Shown one piece after another: positions 40,517-41,724 of a stretch of 41,724 nucleotides of DNA. The stretch comes from Lachnospiraceae bacterium (lineage in GTDB: Bacteria > Bacillota > Clostridia > Lachnospirales > Lachnospiraceae). Position numbers and translations under genes: made by a program. Where the stretch lies: positions 1-41,724 of the forward strand of contig JAILNN010000228.1 in NCBI GenBank assembly GCA_024691565.1. Reading direction: 5' to 3'. The notes below the pieces were generated by a model. That model was not told the origin of the DNA and did no database searches. It worked only from the letters and a program-made list of their open reading frames with translations. Position 1 is the stretch's first letter; each line of letters opens with the position of its first letter.

Positions 40517-41554
40517 CTATAAACTCCAAGCCTTAGGAATCATCAAATCTTTATACAAATTAACAACATAATTATCGCTCATACATGCAATGAAATCGCA
40601 AACTGCTCTTTCCTTAGACTCACCCTCATCAATAAGTCCTGTAAATTCATCGCTCATTTCATTAGTATGTTCATAATAATAATTATATAAATGCTTAATT
40701 AAAATCTCAACCTTCTTTTCCTCGCCCTTCGCTAAAGGATTAGTATATACATTCTTAAATAAATACTTCCTTAAGCCAAAGAATGCTTCTTTAATTGGAT
40801 CAGAAAGTCCAATACAATCATTCTTTTCACTATGGGTAATCATATCATGAACAAGTGTGTTAAGTCTTTGTTTGTAGCTATTTCCAAGAACACTCGTAAA
40901 TTCAGATGGAAGACTCTCTTCCGTTAAAATTCCAGCCCTAATTGAATCATCAATATCTGAATTTATATATGAAATCTTATCAGAAAGTCTAACAATTTGA
41001 CCTTCTAGAGTTGCAGGAAGTAATTCCATCTCATGATTTAAGATTCCATCCTTAACTTCAAAAGTTAGATTTAAGCCTTTCCCGTTCTTTTCAAGCTTTT
41101 CAACCACTCGGACACTTTGTTCATTGTGTTTAAAGGCTGGAAGATTATGTTCAGCCATTATTGTAGTAAGAGCCCTCTCTCCAGCATGCCCAAAAGGTGT
41201 ATGTCCAAGATCATGACCAAGTGCAATCGCCTCGGTTAAATCCTCATTAAGCCTAAGTGCTCTTGCAATAGTCCTTGCATTCTGAGCAACCTCAAGTGTA
41301 TGAGTCATCCTTGTACGATAGTGATCTCCCTCTGGAAGAAGATAAACCTGTGTCTTTTGTTTAAGGCGCCTAAATGCCTTAGAATGAAGAATTCTGTCTC
41401 TGTCTCTTTGATAATCAGTTCTAATATCACATTTAACTTCATCAATTTCTCTTCCGCGACTTTCATCAGCAAAAGATGCTTTTTCAGATAAGATTAAATG
41501 TTCTCTTTTTTCCTGTCTTTCTCTGATAGTAATATCTTCATTGAAATCTACCAT
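40517..41554 (-). CDS. dgt: Deoxyguanosinetriphosphate triphosphohydrolase-like HD protein
   Basis: SKAFRRLKQKTQVYLLPEGDHYRTRMTHTLEVAQNARTIARAL; EAIALGHDLGHTPFGHAGERAL. Confidence 0.93.
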   Translation of the reverse strand: MVDFNEDITIRERQEKREHLILSEKASFADESRGREIDEVKCDIRTDYQRDRDRILHSKAFRRLKQKTQVYLLPEGDHYRTRMTHTLEVAQNARTIARALRLNEDLTEAIALGHDLGHTPFGHAGERALTTIMAEHNLPAFKHNEQSVRVVEKLEKNGKGLNLTFEVKDGILNHEMELLPATLEGQIVRLSDKISYINSDIDDSIRAGILTEESLPSEFTSVLGNSYKQRLNTLVHDMITHSEKNDCIGLSDPIKEAFFGLRKYLFKNVYTNPLAKGEEKKVEILIKHLYNYYYEHTNEMSDEFTGLIDEGESKERAVCDFIACMSDNYVVNLYKDLMIPKAWSL

Positions 41555-41590
41555 GGTTCATCCTCCCTTCAGCGATAGAGTTGATACGTC

Positions 41591-41713
41591 AAGACTCGCT
41601 CGCGAGTCTTGCGCGCCGGATTCGGGTCTGCTTCAGCAGACAAATTCCTGTCCGAATCCGTGCGCATCCTCGCGGAGCGTTTAACTCAGTCGGAGCTTGT
41701 ACCCCGACTGAGT
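41591..41713. repeat. GC-rich multi-hairpin palindromic element (may continue past the window end)
   Basis: AAGACTCG-CTCG-CGAGTCTT (41591-41610); CGGATTCGG (41617-41625)/CCGAATCCG (41652-41660) enclosing GTCTGC-TTCA-GCAGAC (41626-41641); ACTCAGTCGG (41684-41693)/CCGACTGAGT (41704-41713). Confidence 0.88.
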
Positions 41714-41724
41714 ATAGTTTGTCA

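Follow-up and report, generated by a model that had tools for sequence, protein, structure and literature searches.

What is the GC-rich, hairpin-forming sequence with which this contig ends? The window, i.e., the whole stretch of 41,724 nucleotides that was analysed, closes with dgt, the gene for a deoxyguanosinetriphosphate triphosphohydrolase (40517..41554, minus strand; NCBIfam NF002327, 489 bits against a cut-off of 393), and, starting 33 bp upstream of its start codon, with a cluster of inverted repeats. The initial annotation took this cluster for an interspersed palindromic repeat of the REP-like or MITE-like kind, or for a structured non-coding RNA. The analysis described here makes it probable that the sequence is a non-autonomous mobile element of the Lachnospirales, which an IS200/IS605-like (Y1 HUH) transposase acting in trans would move in single-stranded form.

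The structured sequence upstream of dgt

The repeat copy occupies the last 137 bases of the window (41588..41724, plus strand), and the start of the feature, previously placed at 41571, is corrected to 41588. It agrees with the family consensus at 137 of 137 positions, and the same consensus is matched at 100% over 192 bp by copies in Eubacterium oxidoreducens. Matches at E ≤ 3.8e-4 occur in a minimum of 11 further places of the own genome. The window copy represents the first 137 bp of an element of about 187 bp; the contig stops inside the element, before its CTGAG end. Its G+C content is 56%, compared to 33.5% across the window, and its folding energy is −71.8 kcal/mol, compared to −46.6 ± 3.7 for dinucleotide shuffles (z = −6.8; none of 200 shuffles equal). 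The opposite strand folds with z = −6.6. Together with the inverted repeats, these values bear out the GC-rich nested hairpins originally described. The copy also proved free of coding frames and of a U-tract terminator, as had been stated, and no ORF of at least 60 aa is listed there. An intrinsic terminator was rejected for lack of a T-tract, and an outward promoter at the TTGAC tip was dropped, as no promoter-like site appeared in the one copy scanned.

The copy begins with the tip GTCAAG (41588..41593, plus strand), which reads ...CTTGAC on the complementary strand, where the proposed right-end cleavage would fall 3' of TTGAC. Terminal hairpin 1 (41590..41611) has a perfect stem of 10 bp, not 8 bp as first reported, formed by CAAGACTCGC/GCGAGTCTTG (inverted repeat 41590-41599/41602-41611); changes from T-A to A-T in column pair 13/28 keep the pairing. 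The stem lengths given for the other two hairpins were correct. Hairpin 2 (41617..41660) consists of a perfect 9-bp stem, CGGATTCGG/CCGAATCCG (41617-41625/41652-41660), enclosing the 6-bp stem GTCTGC/GCAGAC, and both stems show compensatory changes across genera. Around it, the larger pairing CGCTCGCGAG/CTCGCGGAGCG (41597..41679), also foreseen from the sequence, is present in the minimum-energy fold and in the consensus fold of 12 divergent copies as an alternative to hairpin 1. An internal TTTAA (41680..41684, plus strand), the proposed guide for pairing with a target TTAAA, directly adjoins the outer arm of terminal hairpin 3 (41684..41713). This last hairpin has a perfect 10-bp stem, ACTCAGTCGG/CCGACTGAGT (41684-41693/41704-41713), with compensatory changes. 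In the long form of the element, its outer arm is repeated at the right end; in a short form of about 125 bp, this arm is itself the right end.

Copies and forms of the repeat family

The own genome (G000) holds at least 12 copies or part-copies, several of them at contig ends. A complete copy on contig C153 measures 193 bases up to and including the final A of the adjoining TTAAA. The copies are modular, combining two left halves with two right halves, and both a long and a short right end occur. Contigs C90, C126, C192, C234, C163 and C43 start or stop within the repeat, and one of the other contigs that break off there probably continues the window end. The contig ends here because the repeat breaks the assembly; the contig end does not create the feature, which contradicts the notion of a contig-edge artefact.

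Carriers include relatives in the same genus as well as other genera. Among the matches listed from GTDB contigs are E. oxidoreducens DSM 3217, Lachnospira multipara ATCC 19207, Lachnospiraceae bacterium C10 and many rumen MAGs. Relatives from several genera of gut and rumen Lachnospirales carry from tens to more than 100 copies per genome. Right ends number at least 60 in genome G002 and at least 31 in G014, with no match to reversed-pattern controls; left ends number at least 84 in E. oxidoreducens, 74 in C10 and 35 in L. multipara, again with no control matches. The own genome and its relatives hold many intergenic copies that are nearly identical and show compensatory changes in their stems. 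This agrees with the repeat family initially proposed, although the element is neither a MITE with terminal inverted repeats and target site duplication nor a GTAG-tagged REP.

Full copies are 98-100% identical between E. oxidoreducens, L. multipara, isolate C10 and rumen MAGs. Because copies are near-identical between genera, the data point to frequent recent transfer, and horizontal transfer would account for the identity. Carriage by phages, plasmids or viruses was considered and dropped, as the plasmid, phage and viral collections searched contained no match to the element. A separate IS200-type element, which also breaks contigs, is about 99% identical between C10 (loci L541, L547, L549, L551) and E. 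oxidoreducens (L548), another sign of recent transfer between the lineages. At locus L545, this IS200-type element is inserted right beside a remnant of the repeat.

The element occurs as a long form of 187 bp, a short form of about 125 bp and a minimal form of about 55 bp. Isolates hold mainly complete copies. In G002, where the family is old, many copies are left-only, right-only or internally deleted, and units of about 55 bp of the type GTCAAT[hairpin]...CTGAG retain both tips. The short forms may arise by contraction, i.e., by repeat-mediated deletion between the CCGACTGAGT repeats. Further variants were observed. Two L. multipara copies (L525 and L527 on G063:C7) share the same extra multi-hairpin insert of about 80 bp within hairpin 2, so the modified element itself was copied. 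Stand-alone perfect palindromes of 26 nt, GTCAAGACTCGCTTGCGAGTCTTGAC, occur in G002 (L361, L382, L385, L388, L390, L391, L404; variant L402), and in some of them the palindromy extends into the flanks (AAAAGTCAAG...CTTGACTTTT). Like the G014 copy L214, they look like products of snap-back correction; the G002 palindromes could also be recruited bidirectional terminators. In genome G003, L096, L097 and related loci form a related family with the tip CTGCGTTAAA and the internal sequence ATAACGCAGG, a hint of other sister families whose terminal arms differ.

Boundaries, target choice and orientation

The element is bounded by GTCAAG...CTGAG. In 68 complete copies, the left boundary is sharply defined, with G at 94%, T at 97% and C at 95% in the first three bases; the right end reads CTGAGTTAAA, and outside either end there is no consensus. 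Terminal inverted repeats are absent, as the ends GTCAAGAC... and ...CCGACTGAG are unrelated. Palindromes lie near both termini, one hairpin beginning 2 nt from one tip and another at the opposite tip.

The insertion site was resolved by comparing L. multipara with its close relative G072. Three exact empty sites were found, with the insertion point between GGATAG and TTAAACTTG, between CAAATGCG and TTAAAAATAG (AAATGCG directly preceding TTAAAAATAG), and between ATTATTATTT and TTAAGTTAG. All three correspond to ...[GTCAAG...CTGAG]TTAA... when filled, without duplication or loss of target sequence. In 200 kb of G072, TTAA occupies 1.2% of positions; three out of three would arise by chance with a probability of about 2e-6. 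Three further L. multipara/G072 sites are deletion scars. At pheS, the empty sites in two relatives read TTAG instead of TTAA, and again there is no duplication. Insertion is thus immediately 5' of TTAA (once TTAG), which is 3' of TTAA on the complementary strand, without target duplication. It follows from the exact empty sites that TTAAA is part of the target and that the element is about 187 bp long.

Since the internal TTTAA abuts the outer arm of the hairpin, the stem can extend into a flanking target TTAAA. The internal and flanking sequences vary together. With an internal TTTAA (105 copies), the flank is TTAAA in 89 and ATAAA in none; with an internal TTTAT (14 copies, mostly from one genome, the element end being placed by homology), it is ATAAA in 12 and TTAAA in none. 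There is no crossover among the 119 copies. The empty sites belong to the type 1 (TTTAA) lineage. As the TTTAT copies come mostly from one genome, the covariation may correspond to one or few evolutionary changes. It would be expected of guide-directed target choice. A more specific proposal, possible but held with some reserve, is that of a transposase-less single-strand element, 98-100% identical across Lachnospirales genera, whose target is set by an internal 5-mer extending the terminal hairpin.

The element is almost always intergenic and strongly oriented. Only 7 of 82 complete copies lie within ORFs, compared to 70% of random points. Among 66 copies with both neighbours assigned, both genes are on the minus strand in 41 cases, convergent in 14, both on the plus strand in seven and divergent in four. 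GC skew on the element's plus strand is negative for 67 of the 82 complete flanked copies (p = 5e-9), a bias partly confounded with gene orientation, the figure in opposed-gene contexts being 15 of 19 (p = 0.02). Adjacent copies in E. oxidoreducens share their orientation in 45 of 54 cases. Skew and concordance together place the complementary strand (TTTAA followed by CTCAGTCGGAG...CTTGAC) usually on the leading-sense strand, i.e., the template for lagging-strand synthesis.

On this complementary strand, the element starts after ...TTTAA with CTCAGTCGGAG and ends with ...AGTCTTGAC. A Y1-type enzyme would cut this strand 3' of TTTAA and 3' of TTGAC, and the element would be excised from the lagging-strand template. 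The element would be re-inserted where a TTTAA target can pair with the internal TTAAA next to the terminal hairpin. As for the window copy, it is expected to be largely neutral where it lies upstream of dgt, or to act as a modifier of the 5' UTR or promoter region.

Candidate enzymes, alternative explanations and known relatives

The search for a Y1 transposase gave no result in G000, G002, G014, G064 and G072. Y1_Tnp genes are present in E. oxidoreducens, C10 and L. multipara, unlinked to the element; the intact tnpA loci inspected there do not have the element's ends, and no transposon bearing them was detected. Derivation from the IS200 elements of E. oxidoreducens and C10 was rejected, their ends being unrelated.

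Within the Y1 HUH model, the enzyme might instead be a domesticated single-copy RAYT (TnpA-REP) that moves and maintains a REP-like element, as in REPIN/RAYT systems. High-copy intergenic palindromes are common to both, and G013 and G065 encode RAYT-like proteins of 270 and 258 aa (Y1_Tnp E-values of 3.5e-12 and 1.5e-13). Upstream of each gene, no more than about 400 bp away, lies a copy of the element with the same relative orientation. Such a copy is present on one side only (n = 2), which is suggestive. However, the proteins score 70.5 and 68.3 bits against NCBIfam REP_Tyr_transpos, below the curated cut-off of 80, and the element copies beside them are diverged or incomplete. No RAYT was found in G061, G062, G063, G072, G000, G002 and G014, which hold the most or the freshest copies. 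The GTAG tetranucleotide is absent at the hairpin foot in all aligned copies. In contrast to REPs and REPINs, the element is 187 bp long, has multiple hairpins, lacks the GTAG tag and is spread across genera, no RAYT having been found in most carriers. The RAYT explanation is therefore considered unlikely. At locus L237 (1228-1848, minus strand; G030:C36), a 206-aa Y1/RAYT-like protein has the HUH motif region YAYCVLDYEAY, with the metal-binding histidines apparently missing; judging from this motif, it is possibly an inactive, domesticated homologue.

A structured RNA, be it a cis-regulator or a small RNA kept for its function, would fit the strong fold, the covariation of stems across genera and the place of the window copy, where the 5' UTR of dgt could be. 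In an alignment of 12 sequences from several genera (A2), 88% of the named pairs were kept and 21 cells were changed on both sides, compared to 6.3 in shuffles (0 of 500) and at most six in slid controls. RNAalifold detected double changes in 12 of 53 pairs. This supports conserved hairpins, not necessarily conserved as RNA. Stem covariation is not specific to RNA, because Y1 transposases read hairpins in single-stranded DNA and snap-back correction can perfect palindromes. In addition, the copies are numerous and lie beside unrelated genes in several contexts, with no fixed gene relation, and precise empty sites exist in close relatives. Rfam yielded no match at the gathering threshold and no credible one at E ≤ 5, and the copy tested has no promoter-like site. 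The non-coding RNA reading thus found no support and is very improbable.

Slightly more improbable still is a classic MITE or a retro-inserted SINE-like element with 5' truncation: the repeat is indeed short, gene-less and dispersed, and many truncated G002 copies retain the right end only, but a MITE is contradicted by the missing terminal inverted repeats and target duplication, and retro-insertion was rejected on three grounds: copies that keep only the left end are common as well, those in isolates are mainly complete, and no RVT_1 reverse transcriptase was found in five carriers (G000-G003, G014). An attC-like integron site, considered because of the motif GTTTAAC, was dropped because the copies are dispersed singly.

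The preferred reading, single-strand transposition in trans, has parallels in described systems. PATEs of Haloquadratum walsbyi have no terminal inverted repeats, carry palindromes near their termini, cause no target duplication and are too short to encode a transposase; they form homogeneous families and include terminal-only versions of about 52 bp that arose by repeat-mediated deletion of the core (PMC3119063). Their palindromes match resident IS605-type transposons, an observation made there outside the tabulated definition (PMC3119063). All tabulated features are found in the 187-bp element, and the 55-bp units of G002 resemble the terminal-only PATE. In contrast to the archaeal PATEs, for which a parent transposon was matched, none was found for the Lachnospirales element, whose copies have several hairpins each and are 98-100% identical between genera. 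Members of the IS200/IS605 family such as IS608 and ISDra2 use AT-rich targets of 4-5 nt without duplication, have subterminal hairpins and prefer the lagging-strand template (PMC5934647, PMC6006769). The element likewise inserts 3' of a short AT-rich target on the complementary strand, without duplication and in lagging-strand template orientation; it differs in lacking tnpA and tnpB and in its target, TTTAA. In IS608, pairing with a guide in the transposon selects the target, and insertion occurs on its 3' side (PMC5934647). This guide lies 5' of the terminal hairpin, whereas the guide proposed here lies 3' of the hairpin and extends its stem. The element would thus work like an IS200/IS605-derived PATE. 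Descent from a known IS is not claimed, as likeness to a resident IS605-type element was looked for and not found. It is a PATE-like repeat of a new family, a variant in that no resident parent was found, its guide is continuous with the hairpin and its copies are nearly identical across genera.

BOX- and ERIC-type intergenic repeats are also modular, structured and intergenic; the element differs from them in its precise ends, empty sites and target rule, a comparison made by description. No prior description of the element in Lachnospiraceae was found within the open-access literature searched.

Gene-less mobile repeats that occur in high copy number and whose insertion rule has been solved are well documented in proteobacteria and haloarchaea; for the Lachnospirales, a dominant order of the gut and rumen, no such account was found. 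The element fragments assemblies and places dozens of copies in gene-flanking regions. To our knowledge, DNA-guided target choice has so far been shown mainly by engineering IS608, and the covariation of guide and target offers a natural test of it. If the proposal is true, a change of the guide from TTTAA to TTTAT would shift insertion from TTAAA sites to ATAAA sites, and a mobile element would have been retargeted in nature.
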